33,089 bases of DNA from a virus, in the IMG/VR virus record IMGVR_UViG_3300032093_014000, positions 1-33,089 of that record. One strand, given 5' to 3'. The first letter of the stretch is position 1. Every line of letters begins with the position of its first letter. Positions 1 to 29,940 of the stretch are shown here, one piece after another. Under the pieces are notes generated by a model, which saw only the letters and a program-made list of their open reading frames with translations, was not told the DNA's origin and did no database searches. A program made the position numbers and the translations under genes.

Positions 1-25
1 GAGAGTTCGAGTCTCTCCCAAGGTA
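1..25 (+). tRNA. tRNA, 3' end only (truncated by window edge)
   Basis: The first 25 bases form a T-arm (5-bp stem GAGAG/CTCTC around loop TTCGAGT) followed by seven acceptor-strand bases and an A discriminator. No CCA is encoded. The anticodon lies outside the window, so the amino acid cannot be named. It is the first member of the tRNA cluster that follows. Confidence 0.75.
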
Positions 26-87
26 CAATAATGTAAAATAGAATTTACAAATTATTATATTTTTGTAAAAAGTATTTTACATTAAAC

Positions 88-171
88 GCTCAAATGGTGA
101 AATTTGGTAGTACACGCTAGTTTTAGGGACTAGTGCCGTAAGGCGTGAGGGTTCGAGTCCCTCTTTGAGCA
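88..171 (+). tRNA. tRNA-Leu (anticodon UAG)
   Basis: This is a full class II cloverleaf. The acceptor GCTCAAA pairs perfectly with TTTGAGC. The anticodon stem CTAGT/ACTAG (117-121/129-133) encloses loop TTTAGGG, giving anticodon UAG, which reads CUA. There is a long variable arm and a T-arm GAGGG-TTCGAGT-CCCTC. The discriminator is A and no CCA is encoded. The long variable arm fits the leucine type. Confidence 0.92.
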
Positions 172-185
172 CAAATTAACAAAAT

Positions 186-271
186 GCTCCTGTGGCGAAA
201 TTTGGTAGTACGCGATAGACTTAAAATCTATTGGTTTTTAGACCGTGAGGGTTCGAGTCCCTTCAGGAGTA
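186..271 (+). tRNA. tRNA-Leu (anticodon UAA)
   Basis: Class II cloverleaf with acceptor GCTCCTG pairing with CAGGAGT (one G-U at the end), anticodon stem ATAGA/TCTAT and loop CTTAAAA giving anticodon UAA, a long variable arm, and the same T-loop TTCGAGT as its neighbour. Its D-arm is nearly identical to that of the preceding tRNA-Leu, suggesting duplication. It lies only 14 nt downstream of that tRNA. UUA is expected to be a common Leu codon in such AT-rich DNA. Confidence 0.93.
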
Positions 272-299
272 CAAATTTATAAAAAATTAATATTTTTTT

Positions 300-328
300 T
301 TGAATATTGTAATTTTTTTGTAAATTCG
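300..328 (+). promoter_or_regulatory. Putative promoter of the RNA island (Bacteroidetes-like)
   Basis: A TTG at 300-302 is separated by 18 nt from TAAATTCG at 321-328, one mismatch from the Bacteroidetes -7 box TAnnTTTG. The predicted start near 335 lies just before the boxA-like element and the giant RNA. A near-identical 19-nt stretch (AATTTTTTT[G/A]TAAATTCGT, 311-329) recurs at 2438-2456 upstream of the gene at 2488. This is inference only; no transcript data. Confidence 0.4.
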
Positions 329-345
329 TAGTTAGATAAGAAAAC

Positions 346-358
346 GTTCTTTGAATAT
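346..358 (+). promoter_or_regulatory. boxA-like antitermination element, copy 1
   Basis: GTTCTTTGAATAT is repeated exactly at 1382-1394. Both copies sit 8 nt or less before the first helix of a structured noncoding RNA. The core GTTCTTTGA resembles, from memory, the boxA element in Bacteroidetes rRNA leaders, which recruits NusB/S10 to let polymerase pass through long untranslated RNA. The function here is inferred. Confidence 0.45.
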
Positions 359-365
359 ATAAAAA

Positions 366-1268
366 CTAGTCCCCCAAAAACTCCTATCCGTGGATGCCTA
401 AATCACTAGGGTAATTATGATAGTGTATCAGACAATAGAATAAATTACTACATGATAATTGTCTGGTTGTAGTATAAAGATGAACGTAACGGAGTTTTTA
501 AAGGGGGGTTAATATTAAAATTACCCTGCTTGAAGTAAACAAATAGTGTCAAATAGTAAATGATGAATAGTAAATCAGTGCTTCATCTGAAAGATTGCTG
601 ACTAGGAACATTAGAATCCATACCAAGATGGAGTTGTTTGTGGAGAGATGTTATTCTGTCTGTCGTTCTGTAAGATTTCATATCTTATACGAAGCTATGC
701 CAGGGAATACATTCACACACTTGGAGTGACAGGGTATAAAATTTGGATGACATCAAAACCAATGTAAAAAATATGTATATAATTGTTGTTTATGGTCAAA
801 TTTGTGTACAGATGTCATTCAAATTAATTGTGTTGTTCCCTTGAGAAAGGAGTATTTTTGAATGATACCATACTATGCACCTAACACGTGATTAGGTATG
901 GAGTGATAAGGTCAAACGTAGCTTAATGCCTTAATATATAAAGTGTAGAATGAGGTAGATAAAGACAACACATGGGATTTCTCATCCCTATATTAATGCA
1001 CCATTCCTACGTGGATATAAAGACTTCTTGTGGTATTCCCCTGATAATTACCAATACATCATAAGGACGTGATGGCAAGATGTGAAACCACAATGATTGA
1101 ACAGCAAATGTGATTTACCTTGGAGAAAGACCAAGTAAAGTGTCAATGGTGTAGCATCAATCATCTCCCAAGGGTAGGACAGTTGTAATTTTGTAAATAT
1201 ACCTAACGATTCTGAAAAGAACCGAGGACAAAATTCTTAGGTTAGAATTACAACTGAGTGCAGAGGGG
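366..1268 (+). ncRNA. Giant structured noncoding RNA (GOLLD/ROOL-like candidate)
   Basis: About 900 nt without a plausible reading frame but dense with long complementary segments. Helices read directly: 371-384 with 491-507 (AAA bulge); 429-436 with 458-465; 446-452 with 468-474; 408-416 with 519-527; 653-660 with 728-735; 702-709 with 834-841; 740-754 with 811-825 (15 bp, one G-U); 868-871/879-884 with 892-897/898-901; 931-938 with 989-996; 945-952 with 1002-1010; 974-978 with 984-988; 1028-1034 with 1087-1093; 1057-1062 with 1069-1074; 1094-1100 with 1157-1163; 1114-1123 with 1131-1139; 1180-1190 with 1246-1256 (11 bp); 1201-1206 with 1237-1242; and 1210-1213 with 1218-1221 capped by a GAAA tetraloop. 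At least four pairs of these helices cross, implying pseudoknots. Giant phage RNAs of the GOLLD and ROOL classes are known to sit beside tRNAs; membership needs a covariance-model search. Exact ends are uncertain. Confidence 0.7.
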
Positions 1269-1274
1269 TAAAAA

Positions 1275-1374
1275 AGTCAGGTGGCGAAATTGGTAGACGC
1301 TGGAGTAATTACCACACTATAATCTACACATAGTAGGTTGAAATGTGTTATAGGTTCGAATCCTGTCCTGGCTA
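1275..1374 (+). tRNA. tRNA-Leu-like gene with an aberrant anticodon region
   Basis: The acceptor AGTCAGG/CCTGGCT, a leucine-type D-arm (GCG ... TTGGTAGA ... CGC), T-arm ATAGG-TTCGAAT-CCTGT and discriminator A are all good. The total of 100 nt is some 15 nt longer than the neighbouring Leu tRNAs, and the part between D- and T-arms does not fold normally. One fold (1302-1306/1314-1318) gives loop AATTACC, lacking U33, with anticodon position UUA. Another (1317-1321/1329-1333, one A-C mismatch) gives loop ATCTACA with U33 and anticodon CUA. A third has a 7-bp hairpin 1321-1327/1333-1339. It could be a mutated tRNA, a tRNA with an insertion, or a tRNA-like domain attached to the giant RNA. Confidence 0.55.
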
Positions 1375-1381
1375 CAAAATA

Positions 1382-1394
1382 GTTCTTTGAATAT
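1382..1394 (+). promoter_or_regulatory. boxA-like antitermination element, copy 2
   Basis: An exact 13-nt copy of GTTCTTTGAATAT (see 346-358), placed 8 nt after the aberrant tRNA and immediately before the second structured RNA. The same element in the same position relative to two different RNAs argues for a function, probably antitermination or processing. Confidence 0.45.
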
Positions 1395-1395
1395 T

Positions 1396-1620
1396 AAAAC
1401 AATTAACTGGTTAACAGTAAAAAGATGTGAATAAAAATGTAGGTTTTAGGGAAGCCCACCCCACATTCTTATATTTCTAAGGTATAAGTATTTTACGTTA
1501 ACGTATCAAGCGACAGCTTCCATCAATAAAGAGTGGATAAATGGATTTTTATCTGACCACTATGAGGATGGGTTAAGAATATGAAGAGGATATTCTACTT
1601 AGAGGACAGTTAATTGTTTT
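1396..1620 (+). ncRNA. Second structured noncoding RNA (about 225 nt)
   Basis: The ends pair in a perfect 14-bp helix: AAAACAATTAACTG (1396-1409) with 1607-1620. Inside are hairpins at 1468-1474/1482-1488, 1532-1536/1557-1561 (AGTGG/CCACT) and 1576-1582/1590-1596 (7-nt loop GAAGAGG), plus the palindrome TACGTTAACGTA at 1495-1506. There is no plausible ORF. The closing helix runs into T-rich sequence, so the 3' end could also act as a terminator. Family unknown to me; it shares its upstream boxA-like element with the giant RNA. Confidence 0.6.
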
Positions 1621-1631
1621 TAAAATTTTGA

Positions 1632-1702
1632 TTGTTGGATATTACTATGAAAGTTAATGTAGGCATACATTAATGAGGTGGGTTCGAATCCCTTTTAATA
1701 AT
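1632..1702 (+). tRNA. Degenerate tRNA-like cloverleaf (possible pseudo-tRNA)
   Basis: A 71-nt cloverleaf can be drawn: a 7-bp acceptor helix (1632-1638/1695-1701, three G-U pairs), a minimal D-arm ACT-ATGAA-AGT, an anticodon-like stem TAATG/CATTA (1655-1659/1668-1672), a 5-nt variable loop and a T-arm with canonical loop TTCGAAT. The D-arm lacks GG, the anticodon loop has eight bases (TAGGCATA), and the T-stem has a T-T mismatch. No amino acid can be assigned. It may be a decayed tRNA or a tRNA mimic. Confidence 0.35.
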
Positions 1703-1827
1703 CCCTATGATATGGTGGGAGCCAAGTAATAGAGTCAATATCAGGACCCCTCCCAAGGCCTTGTTAAATAATGTATAACTGGGAATAAAAGTGACATATA
1801 ATGGGTTTGTCACCAATAATCAAAACT
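1703..1827 (+). other. Noncoding spacer with weak structure
   Basis: No gene is visible. The stretch can form a 6-bp helix TGGGAG/CTCCCA (1716-1721/1750-1755) and contains a 10-bp palindrome CAAGGCCTTG (1754-1763). It could be part of a primary transcript linking the second RNA to the following tRNA-Leu. Confidence 0.35.
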
Positions 1828-1912
1828 GGTCGGGTGGTGGAACAGGTAGACACGTTGGACTTAAAATCCAATGGGCATTGCGCCCGTGCGGGTTCGATTC
1901 CCGCTCCGACTA
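1828..1912 (+). tRNA. tRNA-Leu (anticodon UAA), second copy
   Basis: Class II cloverleaf: acceptor GGTCGGG with TCCGACT (two G-U), anticodon stem TTGGA/TCCAA around loop CTTAAAA (anticodon UAA), variable arm TGGGC...GCCCG, T-arm GCGGG-TTCGATT-CCCGC, discriminator A. It reads the same codon as the gene at 186-271 but is much more GC-rich and differs throughout, so it probably has a separate origin rather than being a recent duplicate. Confidence 0.93.
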
Positions 1913-1915
1913 CAT

Positions 1916-2052
1916 AGAAAGACCATTCAAGCGTAAAAAAGGTCGTAAGCTAGGAAAAGGCATGGAGCTGAAACCTCTTGGAAACAAGGTAAGGAAACGT
2001 AAGCACGAAAGCCTAGTGTTTTGACCCCATGCAGCCTCTGAATGGTCTTTTT
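1916..2052 (+). ncRNA. Third structured RNA with pseudoknot and T-tract 3' end
   Basis: A perfect 12-bp helix joins 1918-1929 with 2039-2050 (AAAGACCATTCA/TGAATGGTCTTT) and runs into a T-tract, so the 3' end resembles a Rho-independent terminator. Inside, CTAGG (1950-1954) pairs with 2012-2016 and GCATGG (1960-1965) pairs with 2027-2032; these cross, forming a pseudoknot. CTTG-GAAA-CAAG (1977-1988) is a GNRA-capped hairpin. A direct repeat CGTAAGC occurs at 1944-1950 and 1998-2004. It starts right after the tRNA and probably ends the RNA island's transcription. I do not recognise the family. Confidence 0.6.
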
Positions 2053-2415
2053 TTATTTTAAAGTTAATAGATATGTAGTTTTGTTTATTAATACCAAAAT
2101 ATCATCTATTAAACTTACAATATCAAAATTTTTTTCTTCTTCTATTTTTTTTCTGGAAGATTTTACAAAATTTTCTAATCTTTTAAAATAATCATTAACA
2201 TTTTCTTCTGAATAACTTTTGAACGTCATTTTTATTTCTCCAAAATTTATTCTCTCATTTTTTCCTAAATAAGCCTCAAGTAACTCGTCTGTTAAATTAA
2301 GAATTTCGTCATAAAATTCATTTAAAGCCTTATGTTCCGCAAATGATTTTGTTTCTAAATGCCAAAAATGAGCTTGTTGTCTTGCGTGAAATAATGTTAC
2401 TGCTAATTTTTTCAT
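2053..2415 (-). CDS. Ferritin-like helical phage protein (DUF5856-type)
   Basis: A 120-aa all-helical protein. The N-terminal helices carry a cluster of metal-ligand-type residues (His10, His16, His19, Glu21, His28) in a pattern HxxxxxHxxHLxTKSFAEHKAL that I associate with the phage family DUF5856, related in fold to Dps/ferritin-like proteins. Function unknown: iron or DNA binding is possible but unproven. No signal peptide or membrane segment. It converges on the RNA island, with its stop abutting the T-tract at 2052. An ACTATTTAT motif lies 49-57 nt upstream on its coding strand (2464-2472), suggesting its own promoter. Confidence 0.7.
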   Translation of the reverse strand: MKKLAVTLFHARQQAHFWHLETKSFAEHKALNEFYDEILNLTDELLEAYLGKNERINFGEIKMTFKSYSEENVNDYFKRLENFVKSSRKKIEEEKNFDIVSLIDDILVLINKTTYLLTLK

Positions 2416-2463
2416 AATTAATTTATTAATATGTAATAATTTTTTTATAAATTCGTTATAACA

Positions 2464-2472
2464 ATAAATAGT
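2464..2472 (-). promoter_or_regulatory. ACTATTTAT motif upstream of the ferritin-like gene
   Basis: Minus-strand ACTATTTAT 49-57 nt before the start at 2415. It matches the core of the motif before genes 21, 22 and phoH, with G instead of A at the first position of the longer consensus. Confidence 0.35.
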
Positions 2473-2487
2473 CTTAAAAGATATAAT

Positions 2488-2952
2488 ATGGATTTTGAAG
2501 AAAAAAGAATGTACATTTTAAATATTATTGGAAAAGGTGTTCTAGGTCTAATTGAAGATTTGGATAATATAAAAGAAAAATTTATAAAAAAAGAAGAAAT
2601 AATAGAAAAACATATTCAATATGGCAATTCATTTTATTTCATCTCAAAAGAAGATATAGGAGTTTTGTCTGATGAGTTAAATAAAATAAAAGAATCTGAT
2701 TTAGGATATGTTTTATTAGACATAACTGATAATCTTAATCCTTTTGATTTTATGGGTAATATAACAAAAAATCATGAAAATTCTAAAGAATTTGTTGAAA
2801 TGATTAAGGAGTTTACAGAAAAAGTTGAGGAAGTAAAAGTTACAGAAAGAACGCAAGAAGAATTGTTGGCTGAAGCAATTGAAAATGAAGATTACGAAAA
2901 AGCTGCAAAAATTCGTGATGAGATTAATAAAAAAGAATCTATTAATTCGTAA
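2488..2952 (+). CDS. UVR-motif protein of unknown function
   Basis: 154 aa, rich in Lys/Glu and predicted helical. The last 35 residues (about 120-150, ELLAEAIENEDYEKAAKIRD and on) match the UVR motif shared by UvrB, UvrC and McsA, a short helical hairpin used for protein-protein contact. The rest is unrecognised. UVR modules in UvrB/UvrC mediate their mutual binding, so interference with or recruitment of host repair or McsB/Clp machinery is conceivable, but this is speculation. Start chosen at the first ATG; the sequence upstream contains a TAAATTCG element (2448-2455), like that of the RNA island. Confidence 0.7.
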   Translation: MDFEEKRMYILNIIGKGVLGLIEDLDNIKEKFIKKEEIIEKHIQYGNSFYFISKEDIGVLSDELNKIKESDLGYVLLDITDNLNPFDFMGNITKNHENSKEFVEMIKEFTEKVEEVKVTERTQEELLAEAIENEDYEKAAKIRDEINKKESINS

Positions 2953-2992
2953 TATTTTTATAAAAAAAACGTTTTCTTATAAAAAGATAAAT

Positions 2993-3442
2993 ATGAAAAA
3001 AATAATGACACTAATTATTGCCTCTCTTGTTCTTGTATCATGTAGCGAAAAGAAAGAGGAAAAAGTTTTGGAAGTAAAAGTATCAGAAAAAAAAGAAGAA
3101 ATAAAAAAATCTGAATTCTCAAATCCAGCCATTATATACGGAACAGATTTTTTATCTTTTTTTAAGTCTTTAAGAAAATTAGGACAATACGATAAGATGA
3201 TAAGTTTTACTTCTTTAGAAAGTATTGAAAAATTTGGCAAAGAAGAATTAAAGAAAAAATATGAGAATGAATTTGTAAATATGTCAAATTCCAGTCTTAA
3301 AAGTATGGATAAAATTGATGAAAATACTTATGTAATGCATTATTTAAATAGTGAATTCTCAACAAAAAAAGCTTTTGATATAACTGTTAAAGTTGAAAAT
3401 GATTCAACAAAACTAGTTTTCGAAAATAAATATCCATTTTAA
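2993..3442 (+). CDS. Small phage-encoded lipoprotein
   Basis: 149 aa starting at MKKIMTLIIASL. The N-terminus has two lysines, a hydrophobic stretch and a lipobox LVSC, with Cys17 the predicted lipidated residue followed by Ser-Glu. Then come a Lys/Glu-rich linker (about 18-42) and a soluble domain that looks like an NTF2/DUF4878-type small fold, though I cannot confirm that. A longer frame extends 38 codons upstream into the preceding gene, but only this start gives a functional signal peptide. Lipoproteins expressed by phages during infection often alter the host surface or block superinfection; no direct evidence here. Confidence 0.75.
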   Translation: MKKIMTLIIASLVLVSCSEKKEEKVLEVKVSEKKEEIKKSEFSNPAIIYGTDFLSFFKSLRKLGQYDKMISFTSLESIEKFGKEELKKKYENEFVNMSNSSLKSMDKIDENTYVMHYLNSEFSTKKAFDITVKVENDSTKLVFENKYPF

Positions 3443-3464
3443 TTATTAATTTAAATTTATTATC

Positions 3465-3692
3465 ATGTTTAGTAATATTGTTCTAGTATTTTTGTGTATT
3501 TATTTCTTTATTGTCTTTAAGACAAATTTAGAATTAATATATGATTATGGTTTTAAACAAATCTCAGACGATTTGATTATTAAAGGGAAAGAAGGTGATG
3601 AAAGAAAATTTGCAATCTATTTTAATTTGTTTAACATTATTGGTTTAGTTTCTTTTGTATTAATAATTGTTTTATTCAGTACTATTAAATAA
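3465..3692 (+). CDS. Small membrane protein, two predicted helices
   Basis: 75 aa. Two hydrophobic segments (about 4-20 and 53-72) flank a charged central loop with the stretch IKGKEGDERKF. It sits 22 nt after the lipoprotein gene and 3 nt before the next, so the three are likely co-transcribed. No family recognised. Being next to a lipoprotein it could act at the cell envelope (inference). Confidence 0.6.
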   Translation: MFSNIVLVFLCIYFFIVFKTNLELIYDYGFKQISDDLIIKGKEGDERKFAIYFNLFNIIGLVSFVLIIVLFSTIK

Positions 3693-3695
3693 ATT

Positions 3696-3956
3696 ATGGA
3701 AGGTTTTAAAACTTATAGACACGAAAGTAATCCTAAAGAGAAAGAGTTTCATGATAAATTTATTGAACACAATTCTCACAATCATAATGATATGGATTTT
3801 TTAGTGTTTGGCATGGGAGATAGTAATGGAAATTTTCCAGCAAATAGACTTACTGAACATGAAAAAAAGATTGTTATTTCTACAATTCAATGGTTAGGCT
3901 CACCAGTAGGACAAGGTTTTTTACGTGAATGTGGATTTATTAAAAAAGAAAATTAA
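3696..3956 (+). CDS. Hypothetical protein, 86 aa
   Basis: A short, His/Asn-rich acidic N-terminal half (HNSHNHNDMDF at about 25-35) and a helical C-terminal half containing LTEHEKKIVISTIQWLGSP. No known family, signal peptide or membrane segment. Starts 3 nt after the membrane-protein gene in a compact rightward cassette and ends before the capsid operon terminator. Codon and base composition match its neighbours, so I regard it as a real gene. Confidence 0.6.
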   Translation: MEGFKTYRHESNPKEKEFHDKFIEHNSHNHNDMDFLVFGMGDSNGNFPANRLTEHEKKIVISTIQWLGSPVGQGFLRECGFIKKEN

Positions 3957-3960
3957 ATAG

Positions 3961-3990
3961 AAAAAAAAGAGGTCAACTAATGTTGACCTC
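3961..3990 (-). terminator. Terminator of the capsid operon
   Basis: A perfect 9-bp stem GAGGTCAAC/GTTGACCTC (3969-3977/3982-3990) with loop TAAT. On the minus strand it is followed by a run of T (the A-run starting at 3961), the layout of a Rho-independent terminator for the leftward 21-22-23 genes. The plus-strand side has no strong T-run. Confidence 0.85.
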
Positions 3991-4017
3991 AATTTCTATC
4001 TATCAATTTATAACTGA

Positions 4018-5583
4018 TTAGCTATAAACTTGCTGATAAGTATTGATGTTATCGATGATGATAACTCCATAGAATCTGTTGTTAACCATCTTCTTAGCGT
4101 AACGAGTCATGATACCTTTTCTAGGCGTGAAATCGTTAGGGTCATAGATAGTTTGTGTAAGTTGTAACGGAATGTACGGTGCATACACATAACCAGCTTC
4201 TAAGAATGTATCTCCTTTGTGTCCAAGAAGAACGATGTTTGCAGGCATGTAAGGGTCTTTGTAGACTACATATCTGTTTCCAAGGTTACCAATCTTCTCG
4301 ATACCTAAGTTATACTTCTCAGTTTCAGCTTGTGCTGAACCATCTACGTGGAAGTACTCAAGGTCATCAAAGATTGCACCAGCTTCAGCAGAACAGATAA
4401 TCCAGTTAGCACCACCTCTAAGAGTTGCTTTGTGGATTTGAGCTGAAATTTCGTTCACTCTTGTGATAAGAGTTTGGTTCCAGTCCTTCTGAGTTCCGAA
4501 GAAGTTAGCATTGTTTCTTAAACCTGCATAATCCCATCTTGTTTCGAACATAGCACCATTGATAAGGTCTCTGATGATTTCTCTGTCGATTTCAGCAGCA
4601 ACTTCTTCTGAAAGAAGAGCAGTAAGCTCAGCTTCAGCATCAATGCTGTGGTATGCTTCAAGGTCTTGAGCAAGTTCTGGAGTCCAGTGTGCTCTCATTT
4701 TTCTTGTAACAGTGTTTACAGTTACAGAAGAGAATCTGATTGTAAGTTCGCTCATTTCAGATTTAGCTTCAAGGTCATTGAATACTTCATAAGCTGGAAC
4801 AACTGTAAAGTTAGCAACTAAGCTATCATCAAAGTCAGAACCATAAACTCCAGCAGGTCTGATGTCAAGAATAACATTAGCTTGCTGAGAAGCAAATTGG
4901 TCTTCACCCCAAGTCTGCATTTGAGAGTAGAACTTAACGCTATCACCAGCAGTATAAACAACTGTATTGTTATATACAACGTTAGTTACTGCAGAGAATC
5001 TAAGCGAAGAGCTTGATTGCTGCTTGTTAACATCAAAAGTAGCACCTAAAGCAAAAGTATCAGTAACAAGACCAGATACTAATTCAGTAGAACCAGATGT
5101 ATAAGCGATTGGAGTACCATACTTAGTTTCTCCTGTACCAAAAGAAGCATCATAACCTCTGTTATCATAGAATCTTTCGTAAGCAGATGTACTAGCAAAT
5201 GAAGGTCCACCTTGTCCGTTTGCAGTGTTAGCAGGAGCTACTTTGTTAGTAGATACTCTTGCATCCATATAGAACAAAAGTCCTGAAGGAAGAGCAAGTG
5301 GCTGTACTGAAACGATTTCGTTAGCAAGCAATCTTGAGAAGATTCTTCTAACCATAGGGAATGCTACAGTATCAAAACGACCTGCAGAAGAGTCAAGCGT
5401 TACTTCGTTCAACATGTGAGACGCTTGGTTTTCTAATAATTGAGCAATGTTTGATTTTTTAGCTCCGTTAAGACCTTCTAAAAGTCCAGACCTTTCCCAG
5501 TTTCCAACAATCTCTTTTCTTTGTTCTGAAAGAGTTCTTAGAGTTGTCAAACCAACATTACCGCTGTTTAATAATTCACTCAT
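4018..5583 (-). CDS. 23: Major capsid protein, T4 gp23 family
   Basis: 521 aa, matching the T4 gp23 length. N-terminal TLRTLSEQRKEIVGNWERSG, FPMVRRIFSRLLANEIVSVQ and LPSGLLFYMDARV (about 75-110) and the C-terminal GYVYAPYIPL (464-473) are hallmark gp23 signatures. It forms the hexameric shell. Candidate prohead-protease cleavage sites of the (L/I)xE type occur at LLE (49-51) and LNE (58-60), so about 60 residues would be removed on maturation. Codon use is noticeably richer in G/C than in neighbouring genes, fitting high expression. It follows the scaffold gene by 29 nt with no promoter motif between them. Confidence 0.97.
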   Translation of the reverse strand: MSELLNSGNVGLTTLRTLSEQRKEIVGNWERSGLLEGLNGAKKSNIAQLLENQASHMLNEVTLDSSAGRFDTVAFPMVRRIFSRLLANEIVSVQPLALPSGLLFYMDARVSTNKVAPANTANGQGGPSFASTSAYERFYDNRGYDASFGTGETKYGTPIAYTSGSTELVSGLVTDTFALGATFDVNKQQSSSSLRFSAVTNVVYNNTVVYTAGDSVKFYSQMQTWGEDQFASQQANVILDIRPAGVYGSDFDDSLVANFTVVPAYEVFNDLEAKSEMSELTIRFSSVTVNTVTRKMRAHWTPELAQDLEAYHSIDAEAELTALLSEEVAAEIDREIIRDLINGAMFETRWDYAGLRNNANFFGTQKDWNQTLITRVNEISAQIHKATLRGGANWIICSAEAGAIFDDLEYFHVDGSAQAETEKYNLGIEKIGNLGNRYVVYKDPYMPANIVLLGHKGDTFLEAGYVYAPYIPLQLTQTIYDPNDFTPRKGIMTRYAKKMVNNRFYGVIIIDNINTYQQVYS

Positions 5584-16068: not shown

Positions 16069-16926
16069 ATGAACAATAAAATTAAAGTAATAGTTCCATT
16101 TTATAATCCTGGAAAATTTTTGGACAGATGTGTAAATTCTCTTTTGACTCAAGATTATGAAAATTACGAAATCCTTTTTATTGATGACAGTTCTACAGAT
16201 GGTTCATTTAGCAAAATACCAGCAGTAAAATATAAAGGAGATGATAATGGTGATTTATTAAAAGATGAAAACGGAGAACCTATAGTTGAATATAAACATC
16301 CTCTATTAGAAAAAACGAAATGTCAAAATATTTTAGCTTGGAGGTCAAGCGAAAGAATGAGTGCACTCCCAAATTTGCATAATGGTATAATGAGATTTGC
16401 TATAGACCCAGATGATATTGTTGTAATAGTAGATGGAGATGACTGGTTATTTAAAAAGGATGTATTATCATACATAAACGATTTCTACAATAAAAATCCA
16501 GAATGTTGGATGATGTATGGCAGTTCAAAATGGACTAATGGCATGAAATGTTGTGCGAGAGAATATACAGAAGATGATTTTAAAGATTTAAGAAAATCTC
16601 AATTTAAAGTTTCTCACATAAGAACTTTTAGGGCAGGTCTTTATGCTAAAATTGCAGAGCAGGATGAAAATTATTCATGTATGAAAGATTCTAATGGCAA
16701 TTGGTATCAAATGACATATGATGTTGCAATGTTTATTCCAATGCTTGAAATGGCTGGGAAAGAGCATGTTTTTTATAATGAAACTCCACTTTATGTTTAT
16801 AATAGAGAAAATCCTATTTCTGACGATAAAGTAAATCAGCAACTTCAGTGGAGTATACATTCAGAAATAAACAAAAAGAAGCCTTTTCAAAAAATTGAAA
16901 CTTATAAAACAAATAAAAATGATTAA
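16069..16926 (+). CDS. GT2 glycosyltransferase
   Basis: 285 aa, GT-A fold. KVIVPFYNPGKFLDRCVNSL opens the nucleotide-binding domain; FIDDSSTDGS (DDSSTD, 39-44) is the GT2 donor-base motif; VDGDDW (121-126) is the metal-binding DxD. In the C-terminal part, AREYTEDDFKD and MTYDVAMFIPMLEMAG occupy the usual acceptor-site region. No membrane anchor, so a soluble enzyme using an activated sugar. First gene of the rightward cluster, overlapping the next by 8 nt. Confidence 0.92.
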   Translation: MNNKIKVIVPFYNPGKFLDRCVNSLLTQDYENYEILFIDDSSTDGSFSKIPAVKYKGDDNGDLLKDENGEPIVEYKHPLLEKTKCQNILAWRSSERMSALPNLHNGIMRFAIDPDDIVVIVDGDDWLFKKDVLSYINDFYNKNPECWMMYGSSKWTNGMKCCAREYTEDDFKDLRKSQFKVSHIRTFRAGLYAKIAEQDENYSCMKDSNGNWYQMTYDVAMFIPMLEMAGKEHVFYNETPLYVYNRENPISDDKVNQQLQWSIHSEINKKKPFQKIETYKTNKND

Positions 16927-17719
16927 TGGAATAGTATTTTCAAAAGATAGAGCAGCACAATTAAAACTATTTCTTGATAGTGTTGAAAAAAATGCTAATG
17001 GAGTTTTTTCTTTAAATGTTTTATATACTTATTCAAATGATGAATTTGAAAAAGGGTATAATAAATTGATGGAGCAATTCCCAGAAGTAAAATGGATTAA
17101 AGAAATAGATTTTAGAGAACAAACTTTAGCTATTTTAGAAAATTCAATATATAATTATACATCATTCTTTACTGATGATGACATAATTTATGGAAGAGTT
17201 GATGAAAATGAAATGATTTCAAAATTAGAGACAGATAATGACGCTTTTTGTTTTTCTATGAGATTAGGTTTAAATACAAACAAATGTTACACTATGAGAT
17301 GTGACAATGTTATAATGCCTGATTATGAGGATGATAAATTTATAAAATGGAACTGGTCAGTTCATTATATGGATTTTGGCTATCCACTGTCAGTTGATGG
17401 ACATATTTTTAAAACAAAAGAAATTCATAAACTTTCAAAAAAAGTTATGTTTCAAAATCCAAATACTTTTGAGGCGGCATTACAAATGTTTGGAAACTAT
17501 CCTAAAAAAACAATGTGGTCTTACAAACAAAGTAAATTAGTAAATTCTCCTTCTAATGTTGTTCAAAGTGTATTTCCAAACAGAGAAGGTGAATTTCATG
17601 GGATTTCAGCACAAGAATTGAATGATAATTTTTTGTCTGGGAGAGAGATTAAGTTAAATAAAATAGATTTTTCTAATATTGTTGGATGTCATCAAGAATT
17701 AGAATTACCATTTGAATAA
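16919..17719 (+). CDS. Glycosyltransferase-like protein (GT-A type)
   Basis: 266 aa from the ATG at 16919 (MINGIVFSKDRAAQL); an in-frame start 24 nt further upstream lies deeper in the preceding gene and is less likely. SFFTDDDIIY (TDDD at 85-88) resembles a DxD metal-binding site. DFGYPLSVDGHIFKTKEI and an aromatic-rich centre fit a sugar-processing enzyme, as seen in capsule loci, though the family is less certain than for its neighbours. Start overlaps the previous stop (ATGATTAA), implying coupled translation. Confidence 0.72.
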   Translation: MINGIVFSKDRAAQLKLFLDSVEKNANGVFSLNVLYTYSNDEFEKGYNKLMEQFPEVKWIKEIDFREQTLAILENSIYNYTSFFTDDDIIYGRVDENEMISKLETDNDAFCFSMRLGLNTNKCYTMRCDNVIMPDYEDDKFIKWNWSVHYMDFGYPLSVDGHIFKTKEIHKLSKKVMFQNPNTFEAALQMFGNYPKKTMWSYKQSKLVNSPSNVVQSVFPNREGEFHGISAQELNDNFLSGREIKLNKIDFSNIVGCHQELELPFE

Positions 17720-17723
17720 AGTT

Positions 17724-18038
17724 ATGGCAAAACCAGTAATAGTATTTTATATATACGTTGGAAATTTAGATGAAAGAGATGTAGCCATTTATGTTGAGAC
17801 AGTAAAGGAATCAACAATATATCTTGAAAATGACTATCATAGAATTGTAATTCCAACAAGAGAAGGAGAAACTAAAGTAGAAATGTTATCTCCAAACATT
17901 ATTACATTAAACGACAAAGTAATACAGAAATTAAAACAATCAAGTAAAAAATTAATTTTTGAAACTGAACAGCTTTTAGATAGAATGCCTTTTTTGTCGA
18001 AACAAATATTGTTAATAGAAAAAAATTATAGTATATGA
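17724..18038 (+). CDS. Small conserved-looking protein of the glycan cluster
   Basis: 104 aa from ATG at 17724; a TTG codon 12 nt upstream is in frame but overlaps the previous gene. The N-terminus KPVIVFYIYVGNLDERDVAI begins with a beta strand, and VIPTREGETKVEMLSPNII (about 49-67) is the other distinct part. I have seen similar small proteins in T4-like phages but know no function. Ends in an ATGA overlap with the GT6 gene, so its expression is tied to that enzyme. Confidence 0.65.
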   Translation: MAKPVIVFYIYVGNLDERDVAIYVETVKESTIYLENDYHRIVIPTREGETKVEMLSPNIITLNDKVIQKLKQSSKKLIFETEQLLDRMPFLSKQILLIEKNYSI

Positions 18039-18718
18039 AAATAGGCTTATTAGTCATTGCAACAGGTAAATACACTCAATTTATACCTCCATTATATAAA
18101 TCTGTAAAAAAACATTTTATGAAAAATCATGAAGTTAAAATGTTTGTTTTTACAGATGGTAATGTGCCAGAAAATGATGACATTATTAGAATTGAACAAG
18201 AACATTTGGGATGGCCTTACGCCACATTAAAACGTTATCATGTTTTTGATAAAAATAAAGAATTGCTATCTAACATGGATTATCTTTTTTATTGTGATGC
18301 TGATATGAGATTTGTTGAAGATGTAAACGAAGAAATACTCCCAGATACAGAAACTGAACTTGTTGGCACAGAACACCCAGGATTTTTTGGAGGAAGAAGA
18401 GGAAGTTATGAAACTAACAAAAGTTCAACAGCATATGTTTCAGAAGAAGAAGGTGAATGTTATTATGCTGGTGGATTTAATGGAGGAACTTCAGAAGCTT
18501 TTCTTGAAATGTCAAAAACAATAAAGGAAAGAGTAGATAAGGATTTAGAAAATGGAATTATTGCTGTTTGGCATGATGAAAGTCAAATGAATAGATATTT
18601 TATTGATAATCCACCAAAAAAGCTTAATCCAAGTTATTGTTATCCAGAATCTTGGCAAATACCATTTGAAAAGAAGCTTTTAGCTTTAGACAAAAATCAT
18701 TCAGAAATAAGAGGTTAA
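18035..18718 (+). CDS. Family 6 glycosyltransferase (ABO/alpha-1,3-Gal-transferase type)
   Basis: 227 aa, a catalytic domain without transmembrane anchor. All GT6 landmarks are visible: FYCDADMRF with DxD at 88-90, HPGFF (114-118), YYAGGFNGG (143-151), WHDESQMNRYF (179-189) and NPSYCYPE (198-205). GT6 enzymes add Gal or GalNAc alpha-1,3 to a galactoside; ABO enzymes need a fucosylated acceptor. As I recall, most cellular bacterial GT6 proteins have NxN and are metal-independent, whereas this one keeps DxD, like the vertebrate enzymes and a cyanophage homologue. Stop and next start overlap (TAATG) with a GT10-type gene. Confidence 0.92.
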   Translation: MKIGLLVIATGKYTQFIPPLYKSVKKHFMKNHEVKMFVFTDGNVPENDDIIRIEQEHLGWPYATLKRYHVFDKNKELLSNMDYLFYCDADMRFVEDVNEEILPDTETELVGTEHPGFFGGRRGSYETNKSSTAYVSEEEGECYYAGGFNGGTSEAFLEMSKTIKERVDKDLENGIIAVWHDESQMNRYFIDNPPKKLNPSYCYPESWQIPFEKKLLALDKNHSEIRG

Positions 18719-19548
18719 TGAAAGCAAATGTAAATTCTAATTTTGGCATGTCCTTGAACTATGATTTTGATAGTTCAATGCCAATAGATATTTGGGTTGA
18801 TAATTTTCAAAATTTAGACAATCCAACGATTGAACAGTTTGAAGCTTCAGCAGGAAGAAGGCTTTTAAAAAAATTCTTTGTTCAAATTGAGCCAAACGAA
18901 ATTATGGGTTTGAATAAACGCATTATAGACAATTGGAATCGTTTTGATTATGTGCTTACATATGAACAAGAAGTTTTAGATGCTATACCAAACGGAGTAC
19001 TTTTTGAATATGGAACAAAATGGATTCATTTAGATGAATATGATTTGAATAAGCCAAAAGAGTTTTCTGTATCTACGGTTTGTGGTCACAAGACAATTAC
19101 GGAGAATCATAAAATAAGACAAAAGTTGTGGTATAAACAAAATAAAATAAGCATACCGAAAAAATTCTTTTTAAGTAGATTAGGCGGTGTTGAAAATTTT
19201 GGAAATAACCCTATACTAGGAGAGCGAAAAGAACCTCTATTTGATAGTATGTTTCATATATGTATAGAAAACGTATCAAAGCAGAATTTCTTTACGGAAA
19301 AATTGATAGATTGTTTACTGTGCAAAACCATTCCTATTTATATAGGCTGTCCTAATATAGTAGAATATTTTGATGTAAATGGGATTATTATTGTAAATTC
19401 TTTTAATGAGGCAATTGAAAAGTGCAACGAACTAACTCCTGAGTTTTATGAATCCAAAAAAGATGTCATAGAGATAAATAGAAGATTGGCTATGAATTGG
19501 GTTGATTACAATGAAAGGCTTATTAATAAAATAAAAACTTTAATATGA
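18718..19548 (+). CDS. GT10-type fucosyltransferase
   Basis: 276 aa. The C-terminal segment FHICIENVSKQNFFTEKLID and CLLCKTIPIYIGCPNI (179-214) is the alpha-1,3/4-fucosyltransferase motif (E-N ... TEKL ... P-I-Y-x-G). The N-terminal half includes FFVQIEPNEIMGLNKRII (53-70) and VLTYEQEVL (79-87), as in short bacterial FutA-like enzymes. Length is smaller than Helicobacter enzymes, lacking their C-terminal heptad repeats. Expected donor is GDP-L-fucose, which the gmd and fcl products encoded downstream would supply. Linkage and acceptor cannot be read from sequence. Confidence 0.88.
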   Translation: MKANVNSNFGMSLNYDFDSSMPIDIWVDNFQNLDNPTIEQFEASAGRRLLKKFFVQIEPNEIMGLNKRIIDNWNRFDYVLTYEQEVLDAIPNGVLFEYGTKWIHLDEYDLNKPKEFSVSTVCGHKTITENHKIRQKLWYKQNKISIPKKFFLSRLGGVENFGNNPILGERKEPLFDSMFHICIENVSKQNFFTEKLIDCLLCKTIPIYIGCPNIVEYFDVNGIIIVNSFNEAIEKCNELTPEFYESKKDVIEINRRLAMNWVDYNERLINKIKTLI

Positions 19549-20081
19549 AATTACATTTAGGATGCGGCTTTAAAAAGTTGGATGGTTTTGTAAATGTTGA
19601 TATAAGACCAGAAACAGAATGTGACATTGTTGATAATGTTGCAACATTAAAAAACTTTAAAGATGAATCTGCAGAAATGATATATGCTTGTCATGTTCTT
19701 GAACATTTTAATAGAAAAACATATCTAGATGTTTTAAAAAGGTGGAATGAAATTTTAAAAAGCGGTGGAATATTGAGAATATCAGTTCCTGATTTATATA
19801 AAGTTTCGGAGTTACATTACACAAAAAGATACACTCTTAAACAATTGATGGGATTTTTATATGGAGGTCAAAATTATAATGAAAACTTTCATTATGTTGG
19901 TTTTGATTTTAATATGTTAAAAGAAGATTTAGAAGGTTTAGGATTTATAGACGTTCATATTTGGGATTGGAAAACGGTTGAACATGGTTCTATAGATGAT
20001 TTTAGTCAAGCATATCTTCCACATATGGAAAAAGAAAAAGGAGTTTTAATGAGTTTAAATATTCAAGCTAAAAAAATATGA
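19545..20081 (+). CDS. SAM-dependent methyltransferase (class I)
   Basis: 178 aa. Motif I LHLGCGFKKLDGFVNVD (3-19) and the acidic loop, then ACHVLEHF (post-II, about 48-55) and LKSGGILRISVPDLYK (about 71-86) make a typical type-11-like methyltransferase. Short, with no accessory domain. Probably methylates a sugar or a precursor in the glycan. Overlaps both neighbours by ATGA, a sign of coupled translation. Confidence 0.85.
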   Translation: MKLHLGCGFKKLDGFVNVDIRPETECDIVDNVATLKNFKDESAEMIYACHVLEHFNRKTYLDVLKRWNEILKSGGILRISVPDLYKVSELHYTKRYTLKQLMGFLYGGQNYNENFHYVGFDFNMLKEDLEGLGFIDVHIWDWKTVEHGSIDDFSQAYLPHMEKEKGVLMSLNIQAKKI

Positions 20082-20668
20082 AAATTTATACAATAGGAGA
20101 TTCACATTCTGATTTTTCGTTTAGAAATATTATAGAAGATAGACACAATATTGCGCCTATGACTATGCATAAAGTTAGACGTGATAAAATTAATTTTTAT
20201 GATATTTTTAAAAGTAGAAATGTTGATATATCATATAACTCATTTGTTATTTTTTGTTTTGGAGAAATAGATATTAGGTGTCATATTTTTAATCAAATAC
20301 AATTAAATGATTTAACAGAAGATGAAATAATAAATAGTTTAATAATTGATTATGTTAATCATATTAAAAGTCAAAAAATATTTTTTGAAAAAATTGGAAT
20401 TTTAAGCATAACCCCACCTTCAAAAAAGAATAGAAATATAGAAAATATAAATTTTCCATTTCTTGGTTTAGACGAAGATAGGTCTAGATATACTATTAAG
20501 GCTAATTCTATATTAAAAGAATTATGTAAAGAAAATGATATAAATTTTATAGATATATATCAATATTATGCTGATGAAAATGGAATGTTAATAAATCATA
20601 TGTCTGACGGAAGTGTTCATATTGGAAATACAGTATATGTTAAAAACGAATTAAAAAAACATATTTAA
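20078..20668 (+). CDS. SGNH/GDSL-type hydrolase
   Basis: 196 aa. GDSHS at 7-11 gives the block I nucleophile Ser9; FGEIDIR (61-67) is in the position of block III (GxND in most members, GEID here); DGSVH (177-181) gives the Asp/His pair of block V. Family members act as O-acetylesterases or acetyltransferases on carbohydrates, so removal or transfer of acetyl groups on the glycan is likely. No signal peptide, so cytoplasmic. Confidence 0.78.
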   Translation: MKIYTIGDSHSDFSFRNIIEDRHNIAPMTMHKVRRDKINFYDIFKSRNVDISYNSFVIFCFGEIDIRCHIFNQIQLNDLTEDEIINSLIIDYVNHIKSQKIFFEKIGILSITPPSKKNRNIENINFPFLGLDEDRSRYTIKANSILKELCKENDINFIDIYQYYADENGMLINHMSDGSVHIGNTVYVKNELKKHI

Positions 20669-20670
20669 TC

Positions 20671-22002
20671 ATGGTATCAATATTATTAGCAGTTTATAAT
20701 GGTGAAAAATATTTAAGACGTTCTATAGAATCGGTTTTAAATCAAACATACAAAGATTTTGAGTTATTAATAGGTTTTAATGGAACTATTGACAATAGCA
20801 AAGAAATTGTTAAAGAATTTGACGATGAAAGAATTAGAATTTTTGATTATGGTTTAGATGCTGGGAAGTCTAAAACTTTAAATAAATTATTAAAAGAAGC
20901 TAAAGGAGAATGGTTGGCAATACAAGATGATGATGATGTTTGGTTGCCAAAAAAATTAGAAATACAAATAGAACTTGCGAACACTGGATTATATGATGTA
21001 ATAGGTTCTAGAATATTTTACTGTGATGAATTGGAAAAAATAACAGGTCAGCCTAATCTTTCTTTAGAACATGAAGAAATATTAAGACTTTCAATGTCTG
21101 GTGTAAATCAAGTGGCAAATACTTCAGCAATATTTAAGAAAGAAATAGCAGAAGAGGTTAATGGATGGGATGAGTCTATTGTTGGAATAGAAGATTATGA
21201 TTTTTGGTTGAAACTTATGAAAAAAAGTTGTAAATTTATAAATGACAAAAAACAACTAGTTTTGCATAGAATACATAATAAAAGTAATTTTAATACAAAA
21301 AAATATGATATAAATTTTTTATTAAAAAAACACGACTTGTGTAAATATAAAATTGGTATAGTAATTTTTCATAAAAATGCTAAAAAAATATATAATGACA
21401 GATGGTTATTGAAATTTTTTGATTCAATTGTAAGTCAAACATATAAAGACTATTTTATTTACGAATTAAATTATGGAGATGATAATTATTCTTTTCTTGG
21501 AGATTACCATTTTGAAAATGGTAAATTTTACAAAATTGAAATGGATAATCATGCTCAAGCAATGAATTATATTATAGAAGAAGCATTTAAGGATGGGTGT
21601 GATTTTGTATTTAATACTAATGTAGATGATTATTATCAAGAAAACAGAATAGAAAGACAATTTGAAAAATTAAAAGAAGGTTATGATATAGTTTCATCAA
21701 ACTTTTCTCATATAAAAGAAAATAATTATGAAGATGAAAGTGTTAAGGATTTTTTAATGACAAAAAAAGGAGAAATAATAGAAAATCTAAGAGTTGGTCA
21801 TAATGTTATAGCTCATCCATGTGTTGCGTATAGTAAAAACTTTTGGGATAATAATAAATATAATGAGGAAGATATACCAATGGAAGATTTAAAACTTTGG
21901 CAAGATTCAATTGAAAAAGGTTTTAAATTTTATATTTGTGAAGACATTCTTCTTTATTATAGAATACATGAAAATCAAGTAACTAAACTAATAAAAAATT
22001 AA
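20671..22002 (+). CDS. Two-domain GT2 glycosyltransferase
   Basis: 443 aa with two GT-A domains in tandem. Domain 1 (about 1-215): SILLAVYNGEKYLRRSIESV, FNGTIDNS, QDDDDVW (85-91), and EDYDFWLKLMKK at the acceptor site. Domain 2 (about 225-443): YKIGIVIFHKNA, a degenerate donor loop, NVDDYY as metal motif, and EDLKLWQDSIEKGFKFY. Domain 2 lacks some first-motif residues and may be weak or have other specificity. Such tandem enzymes can add two sugars in succession. No membrane segment. Confidence 0.87.
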   Translation: MVSILLAVYNGEKYLRRSIESVLNQTYKDFELLIGFNGTIDNSKEIVKEFDDERIRIFDYGLDAGKSKTLNKLLKEAKGEWLAIQDDDDVWLPKKLEIQIELANTGLYDVIGSRIFYCDELEKITGQPNLSLEHEEILRLSMSGVNQVANTSAIFKKEIAEEVNGWDESIVGIEDYDFWLKLMKKSCKFINDKKQLVLHRIHNKSNFNTKKYDINFLLKKHDLCKYKIGIVIFHKNAKKIYNDRWLLKFFDSIVSQTYKDYFIYELNYGDDNYSFLGDYHFENGKFYKIEMDNHAQAMNYIIEEAFKDGCDFVFNTNVDDYYQENRIERQFEKLKEGYDIVSSNFSHIKENNYEDESVKDFLMTKKGEIIENLRVGHNVIAHPCVAYSKNFWDNNKYNEEDIPMEDLKLWQDSIEKGFKFYICEDILLYYRIHENQVTKLIKN

Positions 22003-22004
22003 AA

Positions 22005-22637
22005 ATGTTAATTAATTTTAGAGATATAAGAAATAAATATAAAATCAACATTAAAGGAATTTTACATGTTGGTGCACATCACGCAGAAGAAGCTGAATCA
22101 TATAGAACTTGTGGTGTTGATAATGTTATATGGGTAGAAGCAGACCCAGATACATTTAATGAATTGCAAAATAAAATAAGTAACTATAAAAATCATAAAT
22201 CTTACTGTTTTGCAGCATCTGATATAGATGGACAGGAAGTAGATTTTCATGTTGCAAGTAATGGAGAATCTTCTTCTATTCTTGAAATGGATAAACATAA
22301 AATTCATCATCCACACATTTCTGTTGTTAATAAAAAAACTGTTAAAACAAAAAAGATTGACACTTTCTTTAATGATGAGAAATTTAATCCATGTGATTTT
22401 AATTTTTTAAATTTAGATATTCAAGGAGCAGAACTTTTAGCTTTAAAAGGTATGGAGAATTCTTTAAATGATATAGATTATATTTATACAGAAGTTAATA
22501 CTGATTATCTTTATAAGGATTGTGCAAAAATAGAAGAAATTGACTTGTATTTAAGTAAATTTGGTTTTGAAAGGGTAGAAACTAAAATGACTGAATATCA
22601 ATGGGGTGATGCATTTTATATGAAAAAAAATGATTAA
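22005..22637 (+). CDS. FkbM-family methyltransferase, copy 1
   Basis: 210 aa. ILHVGAHHAEEAESY (19-33) is motif I, VIWVEADPD (about 41-49) follows, and FLNLDIQGAELLALKGME (about 134-151) is the FkbM signature. These enzymes O-methylate sugars or polyketides. Differs strongly from the second FkbM gene at 25179, so each probably has its own target position. Overlaps the next gene by 8 nt. Confidence 0.9.
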   Translation: MLINFRDIRNKYKINIKGILHVGAHHAEEAESYRTCGVDNVIWVEADPDTFNELQNKISNYKNHKSYCFAASDIDGQEVDFHVASNGESSSILEMDKHKIHHPHISVVNKKTVKTKKIDTFFNDEKFNPCDFNFLNLDIQGAELLALKGMENSLNDIDYIYTEVNTDYLYKDCAKIEEIDLYLSKFGFERVETKMTEYQWGDAFYMKKND

Positions 22638-23457
22638 TATTTATTTTGAATATAGAAATATGGGTCCAAAAAAAGTTATTGACAACTTTATTAGTGGACT
22701 GGAAATTTTGAAAGAAAATTACACAATTAATTCATCAGAAAATAAAAACGATGAAAAAAATGTTTTTCTTCAAAGTCATAATATGTTAAGTTTAAAAATA
22801 GAAAATTCTATAATAGGCCCAAATATATGCACTTTACCTATAGACAATAAATATGTTATGGAGCAGAAATATAAAAAAATTTTAGTTCCATCAGAATGGG
22901 TAAAAAAATTATATATGAAATGGCTCCCAGAAGAAAAAATAGAGATTTGGCCAGTAGGTATTGATACTGAATTATTTGCCGACAAATCTAATGACAAAAA
23001 AGAATTTGATTGTTTAGTATATTTTAAAAGGAGAAATGAAGAAGATTTAAAATTTGTAGAAAACTTTTTAAAAGAATCAAATCAAACATATAATGTAATA
23101 AAATACGGCCATTATAATGAGTCAAATTTTTTAGATTTAATATCGAAAAGTAAATATGGTTTTATTATAGATAATTGTGAAAGTCAAGGAATAGCAATAC
23201 AAGAAATGATGAGTTGTAATTTGCCACTAATTGTTTGGGACGTAAAATATTGGAACGATAGAGGTGAAGAATATAAGGTAGAAGCAACATCAATACCTTA
23301 TTTTAATTCATTATGTGGAATTTATTTTTATGAAAAAGAAGAAATTTACAGTAAGTGGAATCATTTTATTAGAAATTTGGAATCATATAAACCAAGAAAT
23401 TATATATTAGAAAATTTAAATTTAGAAAAACAGTCAAAACAAATAATAAAATTATAA
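22630..23457 (+). CDS. GT-B glycosyltransferase
   Basis: 275 aa, shorter than the usual GT4 enzyme (350-400). SEWVKKLYMKWLPEEKI and the domain linker WPVGIDTELF (about 112-121) are characteristic of GT-B folds; DNCESQGIAIQEMMSCNLPL (about 178-197) is the donor-binding region with its paired Glu. The N-terminal domain is reduced, starting at IYFEYRNMGPKKVIDNF. Sugar unknown. Gene starts inside the preceding stop region, consistent with translational coupling. Confidence 0.8.
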   Translation: MINIYFEYRNMGPKKVIDNFISGLEILKENYTINSSENKNDEKNVFLQSHNMLSLKIENSIIGPNICTLPIDNKYVMEQKYKKILVPSEWVKKLYMKWLPEEKIEIWPVGIDTELFADKSNDKKEFDCLVYFKRRNEEDLKFVENFLKESNQTYNVIKYGHYNESNFLDLISKSKYGFIIDNCESQGIAIQEMMSCNLPLIVWDVKYWNDRGEEYKVEATSIPYFNSLCGIYFYEKEEIYSKWNHFIRNLESYKPRNYILENLNLEKQSKQIIKL

Positions 23458-23460
23458 AAA

Positions 23461-24393
23461 ATGAAAAATATTTTAATAACAGGAATAAATGGGTTTGTCG
23501 GTTCATCATTGGCAGAAAAAGAGTTAAATAGTGGAAATAATGTTATAGGTATAATTAGAGATAAAAATAAAAAAACTCAAAAAGATATTTTAGATAAATG
23601 TACCATAATATATGGAGACATATTAGATTCGGAATTAGTAGAAAGAATTATTTCTGATTACGAAATTGATTTAATATATCATATAGCAGCGATGTCTATA
23701 GTTAAAATAGCAAATAAAAACCCTGTAAGTTGTTATAAAAGTAATATAATTGGAACAATAAATATTTTAGATGCCATTAGAAAAATTAATCCAAACATAA
23801 AAATAATAGTTGCTTCTTCAGATAAATCATATGGGACTCACGATGTACTACCTTACACTGAAGATATGAAGTTGCAACCAGATGACCCATATTCAACATC
23901 AAAAGCCTGTGCCGACCTAATTTCTCAATCTTACTACAAAACTTATGGAATAAACGTTAATGTCATTAGATGTGCTAACATTTATGGGCCTAGAGATATG
24001 AATATTTCCAGAATAATACCAAATACAATAATACAAATACATAAAAATAACAAACCAAGAATTTACTCTGGGGTTCTAGGCTTTAAAAGAGAGTTTGTTT
24101 TTATTGATGATGTGTGTAATGCTTATAAATTGCTTTCAGAAAATGGAAAGCCTGGGGAAATTTATAACATCGGAGATAATGAATTTCATACAATAGAAGA
24201 AACAGTTTCTACAATCTCTAGTTTAATGAATTACTCTGGAGGAAGTGAAATTGTAAAAAAAGATTTTATAGAAATTCCTTTTCAATATATGTCTGCTGAT
24301 AAATTAAAAAAATTAGGATGGACTAAAAAATATTCTTTTGAGGAAGGTTTAAAAAAAACTATTAATTGGTATATAAACTATTTAGGTAAATAA
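23461..24393 (+). CDS. NAD-dependent sugar-nucleotide epimerase/dehydratase (extended SDR)
   Basis: 310 aa. Cofactor site TGINGFVGSS (7-16), SSDKSYG (119-125) and active-site YSTSK (Tyr144, Lys148), then NIYGPRDMN and GFKREFVFIDDVCNAY. The SSDKSYG block resembles CDP-glucose 4,6-dehydratase (RfbG)-like members more than UDP-glucose epimerases. Likely makes a 4-keto-6-deoxy or epimerised sugar nucleotide distinct from GDP-fucose. Substrate cannot be fixed from sequence. Followed after one base by a second SDR gene. Confidence 0.86.
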   Translation: MKNILITGINGFVGSSLAEKELNSGNNVIGIIRDKNKKTQKDILDKCTIIYGDILDSELVERIISDYEIDLIYHIAAMSIVKIANKNPVSCYKSNIIGTINILDAIRKINPNIKIIVASSDKSYGTHDVLPYTEDMKLQPDDPYSTSKACADLISQSYYKTYGINVNVIRCANIYGPRDMNISRIIPNTIIQIHKNNKPRIYSGVLGFKREFVFIDDVCNAYKLLSENGKPGEIYNIGDNEFHTIEETVSTISSLMNYSGGSEIVKKDFIEIPFQYMSADKLKKLGWTKKYSFEEGLKKTINWYINYLGK

Positions 24394-24394
24394 T

Positions 24395-26623: not shown

Positions 26624-26630
26624 TATTAAT

Positions 26631-27919: not shown

Positions 27920-27921
27920 TT

Positions 27922-28773: not shown

Positions 28774-28774
28774 T

Positions 28775-29887: not shown

Positions 29888-29916
29888 TAAAATATTTACT
29901 TTTTTATAATAAAAGT

Positions 29917-29924: not shown

Positions 29925-29940
29925 GTTTAAAACATTTTAT

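Follow-up and report, generated by a model that had tools for sequence, protein, structure and literature searches.

Which genes and features surround the candidate RNA? The window—the whole 33,089-base stretch analyzed, virus record IMGVR_UViG_3300032093_014000—lacks end repeats, so the record is, judging from its sequence, perhaps a fragment. Its leftmost 2,052 bases contain no ORF of at least 80 aa, and the rest of the record has a single gap that reaches 300 bases, one of 327 bases. Three plus-strand tRNA-Leu genes found by both ARAGORN and Rfam lie in these 2,052 bases (tag, 88–172; taa, 186–272; and taa, 1828–1913), together with a fourth, odd tRNA match at 1275–1374. This plus-strand, tRNA-like element, matched by Rfam at 32.8 bits and not called by ARAGORN, has an insert replacing the normal anticodon arm, may be cut by RNase P on its 5′ side, and folds alone with a z of −1.07. 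It sits directly 3′ of the large RNA candidate. Look-alikes were found in three other phages, with normal D- and T-arm letters and, as here, an insert replacing the normal anticodon arm (L090 5036–5150; L126 10506–10625; L094 7842–7927, minus strand). Positions 1–26 (plus strand) hold the 3′ end of one more tRNA gene, recognized by reading its GTTCGAG T-loop and acceptor end and not called by ARAGORN; because this end is cut by the window edge, the array probably begins upstream of the window.

Two further noncoding elements lie in the right part of the array. The second noncoding stretch (1398–1825, plus strand) is probably structured, with an 11-bp helix (1398–1408/1608–1618), a conserved core (1648–1729), and a plus-strand fold z of −2.23 over 1395–1825; the minus strand of 1395–1825 folds better than the plus (z −4.29, none of 200 shuffles as good). 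The core is 82–84% conserved in three other phages (L090 8643–8745, L125 5203–5308, and L126 10949–11050), one of which (record G030, locus L090) has a capsid protein just 43% identical, and it contains a T-arm-like GGTTCGAATCC and a hairpin with A-T replaced by G-C. The last element (1921–2054, plus strand) is closed by a 9-bp stem (1921–1929/2039–2047, pairing checked base by base) and followed by seven T. Its sequence makes it the probable terminator of the tRNA array; 1915–2050 folds alone with z −2.92, and the stem surrounds ~110 nt with GGAAAC-type loops. A 21-nt piece of this element had no exact match in IMG/VR. Right of the array lies a T4-like head-gene block, in which the protein of 4018–5583 matches annotated major capsid proteins (the nearest named ones, from Flavobacterium phages, at 35% identity) and other genes presumably encode scaffold, prohead protease, and PhoH. 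From 16069 to 31939 runs a long series of genes resembling, by eye from their translations, glycosyltransferases, sugar epimerases, and methyltransferases, an amount unusual for a phage.

Related phages carry giant RNAs in such arrays. A search of IMG/VR with the capsid protein retrieved at least 80 loci, and Rfam placed GOLLD above its cut-off in 4 of 80 records among the matches listed. Two more GOLLD records were found through the 1648–1729 element, giving seven copies in six records. Record G009 has two tandem copies (L121 1501–1913 and 2479–2926, minus strand), each with its own boxA-type motif; the second is diverged and falls below the cut-off, at 86.5 bits. Phage-encoded tmRNA occurs in the same arrays (L126 5129–5519 and L125 1028–1383), with GTTCTTTAA directly upstream in L126.

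Does the interval at 366–1268, between the second tRNA-Leu gene and the tRNA-like element, encode a protein or an RNA? We list it as a candidate large noncoding structured RNA, or several structured RNAs in a row, on the plus strand, on the basis of its stem packing, GC content, base bias, and absence of an ORF. The original prediction of no credible ORF was confirmed: none of at least 60 aa touches 273–1374, where the longest start-to-stop frame is 44 aa, and 39 frame fragments compared with 6,484 ORFs of the retrieved loci resembled none of them (best E 0.11). A protein gene was rejected on both counts. A row of decayed tRNAs was likewise rejected, because the tRNA T-arm motif is absent from 366–1268. 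The GC content of the interval is 0.353, vs. 0.274 inside the window's ORFs and 0.125 in 877 nt of non-ORF DNA elsewhere in the window, the latter figure being biased toward AT-rich DNA by its definition as lying outside any ORF of at least 60 aa. The plus strand has more G than C and more A than T, as in all seven GOLLDs compared. A sigma-70 scan of 1–4100 returned 25 promoter-like sites, about equal to the 22.6 in shuffles.

A boxA-type element, GTTCTTTGAATAT (346–358, plus strand), ends 7 nt upstream of 366. The only other exact copy in the window (1382–1394, plus strand) precedes the second noncoding stretch. All seven GOLLD copies of the six related records also have a boxA-type motif upstream, either GTTCTTTGA (four copies) or GTTCTTTAA (three), at 375–460 nt from the Rfam match—about where one would expect an RNA exceeding 800 nt to begin. 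The retrieved loci, some of them overlapping, total 1.68 Mb; ORFs of at least 100 aa take up 1,485 kb and contain 81 copies of GTTCTTTGA or GTTCTTTAA, and the remaining 193 kb contain 32. Many of the 32 were seen by reading to precede tRNAs or GOLLD, and one further copy precedes a tmRNA. Because it also stands upstream of tRNAs and tmRNA, the motif alone does not imply a giant RNA. Nine GOLLD-like GenBank phage records were found, and the motif was looked for in five: it was absent from all three Acinetobacter phages and from one of two records of uncultured huge phages, and lay 512 nt upstream of the match in the other.

Where else does this motif occur? At least 119 stretches of bacterial contigs have GTTCTTTGA 105–135 nt upstream of 16S rRNA, with many Bacteroidota among the matches listed (80) and an AT-rich follow-on resembling that of the phages. 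In rRNA-type boxA antitermination, the motif acts through NusB and S10. We take GTTCTTTGA to be the rRNA boxA antiterminator, and its placement before 16S rRNA fits that role. The phage elements share the GTTCTTTGA core and AT-rich follow-on found upstream of Bacteroidota 16S rRNA; the window's putative boxA differs in preceding phage RNAs and tRNAs. A literature search that took in few subscription titles returned no paper pairing boxA with GTTCTTTGA, or boxA with antitermination and phage tRNA; boxA and GOLLD co-occurred, within the same coverage, in plant papers only, as judged by title. The combination of boxA, antitermination, phage, noncoding RNA, and Bacteroidetes led to work on LoaP.

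Is the candidate a member of a known RNA family? The original prediction had called it a GOLLD- or ROOL-like phage RNA. What stood is a noncoding, probably structured region of ~0.9 kb beside tRNA genes, in the niche of GOLLD; what did not is a match to either model. Among 4,227 Rfam families at gathering scores, tRNA was the only one matched in the window. Scans at E ≤ 5 and E ≤ 10 added scattered chance matches far below cut-offs and no giant RNA, and on 300–1300 at E ≤ 10 they gave snoRNA-type and thermometer chance matches only. Searched against the window record alone, neither the GOLLD model (RF02032, cut-off 150 bits) nor the ROOL model (RF03087, cut-off 99.1 bits) found anything at E ≤ 10, the ROOL result being weak in that control genomes gave no match either. 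A profile of the seven phage GOLLDs also found no match in the window with all filters off. Membership in GOLLD or ROOL was thus not supported by any of these searches, and GOLLD, ROOL, or another Rfam family was rejected for 366–1268. OLE and other large bacterial RNAs are of the same size class as the candidate and differ from it in this respect: no Rfam family except tRNA scored above its cut-off.

That the candidate is a GOLLD diverged beyond the reach of present models strikes us as very improbable. It occupies the same niche, has the same upstream motif and a similar base bias, and measures ~920 nt from the motif, vs. 764–880 nt in GOLLDs. Furthermore, the hairpin GGGATTTCTCATCCC at 974–988, adjoining helix 829–837/964–972, is similar to the GGAGTATTCTCATCC with which two GOLLDs end, a lead rather than a match. 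However, RF02032 is silent here at E ≤ 10, yet it caught the diverged G009 copy at 86.5 bits, and the seven-sequence profile is equally silent. By eye, the GOLLD 3′ blocks GTGGATAA, AATAAT, and TAATCTCAG are absent from 366–1268, and where GOLLDs have a conserved 3′ domain with a terminal TAATCTCAG-type hairpin, the candidate has only a 9-nt look-alike at 979–987.

How strong is the evidence for structure? Ten helices named in the original prediction were checked base by base, and all are present, 945–952/1002–1010 pairing only with a bulged base. Pairing is complete in 429–436/458–465, 446–452/468–474, 408–416/519–527, 653–660/728–735, 702–709/834–841, and 931–938/989–996. The 5′ domain (367–528, plus strand), as read from one sequence, comprises a bulged 18-bp helix (367–384/491–511), a hairpin (427–436/458–467), and an interleaved helix (407–416/519–528); the predicted 371–384/491–507 belongs to its stacked 9-bp helices 367–375/503–511 and 376–384/491–499, separated by a 3-nt bulge. 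Three other plus-strand features had their pairing checked: the 15-bp helix 740–754/811–825, including one G-U, with an inner helix 774–782/802–810 (together 740–825); the interleaved helices 997–1005/1145–1153 and 1093–1100/1157–1164 (997–1164); and a 3′ hairpin domain (1180–1256), in which the 11 bp of 1180–1190/1246–1256 can be extended to a 14-bp helix (1180–1193/1243–1256).

The original prediction had also held that so much pairing exceeds what random DNA would give. Shuffled controls showed a moderate excess in folding energy: the MFE of 366–1268 has a z of −2.66 (2 of 100 shuffles as good; −3.31 in a smaller run of 20 shuffles) and its minus strand −2.27, while coding controls taken from both strands of six places (12 in all) lie between +0.95 and −2.52 and the seven GOLLD RNAs of related phages, at −3.24 to −6.66, fold more strongly than the candidate. 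The outcome is mixed: stem packing, scored by summing over the 20 best non-overlapping stems, gives z 5.0 (reached by none of 300 shuffles), and MFE lies near the coding-control minimum. In stem packing 366–1268 ranks first among 35 window pieces, the other 34 reaching at most 3.3; its p-value is optimistic, because two other stem statistics had been tried first and the region had been chosen beforehand for its helices. Stem counts are more ambiguous. Allowing G-U, the plus strand has 29 stems vs. 15.3 in shuffles (0 of 200 as good) and the minus strand 15; with Watson–Crick pairs only, there are 17 vs. 10.7 (10 of 200 as good), and an earlier count on a shorter span gave 17 vs. 8.6 (0 of 60). 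Some of the 34 other window pieces match or exceed 366–1268 on stem counts overall, and one equals it on the G-U-allowed count (z 3.7).

The seven GOLLDs score −1.5 to +1.9 on stem counts (−1.1 to 1.9 with G-U allowed) and −0.8 to 2.0 on stem packing. We therefore rejected stem counting as proof of an ornate RNA; the argument from helix number is weak because real GOLLDs show no such excess. The interval is unusually rich in compatible helices, and neither helix number nor stem packing is a hallmark of the known ornate RNAs.

One giant molecule or several small ones? The interval could hold several small structured RNAs side by side, like those at 1398–1825 and 1921–2054, a reading that we regard as unlikely while giving it appreciable weight. 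The tRNA arrays of relatives do hold short unknown noncoding elements between tRNAs, and when sub-regions are folded alone, 366–530 (z −1.84) and 1175–1270 (z −2.21) beat shuffles somewhat, while 535–925 (z −0.97) and 925–1175 (z 0.07) do no better than shuffles. Against separate RNAs, no tRNA or boxA-type motif divides 366–1268, and the long-range helices 617–624/895–902, 692–699/917–924, and 997–1005/1145–1153 would join its middle.

Can homologues of the candidate be found? Among 30 capsid-sharing records, blastn of 280–2060 returned tRNA matches and one match to 1648–1729 (82%, E 7e-16), and within 366–1268 it gave short pieces only, the best of 19 nt in a coding frame; this identity to 607–625 in record G020 (E 0.0017) was rejected, as it lies inside a 410-aa frame. 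GenBank phages and plasmids likewise yielded short pieces only (best E 0.3 and 0.9). Peptide-derived seeds, which detect close relatives only, so that distant homologues may exist, matched 10 and 10 stretches in IMG/VR (12 seeds) and 63 in GTDB contigs (6 seeds), none confirmed as a homologue. An exact-pattern search of IMG/VR with a piece of the large RNA found no homologue, and an 18-nt match in L267 was rejected as lying within a gene. Two one-sequence covariance models run on 63 records gave no homologue and weak matches in ORFs; the R1 matches in G006 and G016 and the R2 match in G059 were rejected on that ground. Among 40 loci with relatives of the neighboring 120-aa gene, the best piece was 36 nt (E 0.21).

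The closest records place the candidate in a changing neighborhood. Record G083 is 99.98% identical to the window over the 6.4 kb compared and stops at window position 2633, and in it neither GOLLD nor tRNA reaches the Rfam thresholds. The nearest relative spanning the site (L129/G084), at 77% DNA identity in structural genes, was rejected as a carrier of a homologue, since its site is occupied by tRNA-Leu plus a short element resembling a tRNA. Because this relative has other elements there, the array is, by sequence comparison, variable between relatives, and the 366–1268 RNA is an orphan here. Such variation among close relatives, the lack of a found homologue, and the weak folding z are what one would expect if the interval were a neutral spacer in the array, or a remnant, with helices arising by chance. 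We nevertheless consider this improbable: none of 300 shuffles reached its stem packing, its GC content is almost three times that of other non-ORF DNA, and a boxA-type motif lies immediately upstream. Phages also rarely retain 0.9 kb without function.

Overall, 366–1268 is likely to be a real noncoding RNA region, led by boxA and placed where related phages have GOLLD. Going further, we lean, with little better than even confidence, toward reading 366–1268 as a single large, untranslated, structured RNA that is led by boxA and occupies the niche of GOLLD without being GOLLD; it may represent a new RNA family. The observations beneath this reading are the absence of an ORF, the RNA-like composition, the stem packing, the tRNA neighbors, the boxA-type motif, and the motif-led GOLLDs of relatives. 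Like GOLLD, the candidate is noncoding, of ~0.8–0.9 kb, and located in a phage tRNA array, a GOLLD trait; GOLLD itself is present in related T4-like records and has the same base bias. A boxA-type motif near the 5′ end is a further likeness, a trait seen here and not part of the published definition of GOLLD. The candidate differs from GOLLD in having no covariance-model or profile match, no 3′ blocks, and no found homologue. ROOL resembles the candidate in being large, pseudoknotted, and located near tRNA islands in phages, according to PMC12286853, and differs in that RF03087 (574 model positions) has no match in the window.

How might such an RNA be made? We infer its transcription, boxA function, processing, fold, unity as one molecule, and role. 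An untranslated RNA of ~0.9 kb would be contained in a noncoding transcript that runs rightward through the tRNA array (1–2054) and ends at the probable terminator element 1921–2054. Host NusB and S10 would bind the boxA at 346–358 and, as happens in ribosomal RNA operons, keep Rho from acting on the transcript. tRNA-processing enzymes could then cut after tRNA-Leu (272) and before the tRNA-like element (1275), freeing an RNA of ~1.0 kb that would fold into domains linked by pseudoknots. PMC12286853 describes GOLLD and ROOL as large phage RNAs of unknown function that form RNA-only cages, reports that in at least one strain ROOL matched 16S rRNA in abundance and that GOLLD rises during lysis, and leaves open whether cages are common among large RNAs. 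By analogy, the role of the candidate would most likely be that of an abundant structural RNA during infection, perhaps self-assembling. A bolder extension, which we offer tentatively and hold to be possible rather than probable, is that the candidate represents a third class of giant ornate phage RNAs, unrelated to the other two, which takes the place of GOLLD in a sister lineage. Antitermination at boxA by the host would then be the route by which these phages generally express long untranslated structural RNAs, and the new class might form cages as GOLLD and ROOL do.

What would this mean for phage biology? If a nonhomologous RNA does occupy the GOLLD site, it would suggest that what phages require next to their tRNAs is a large structural RNA and no particular sequence. 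The boxA-type motif before all seven related GOLLDs provides a direct test of how such RNAs escape Rho, and it is also a handle for finding further large phage RNAs.
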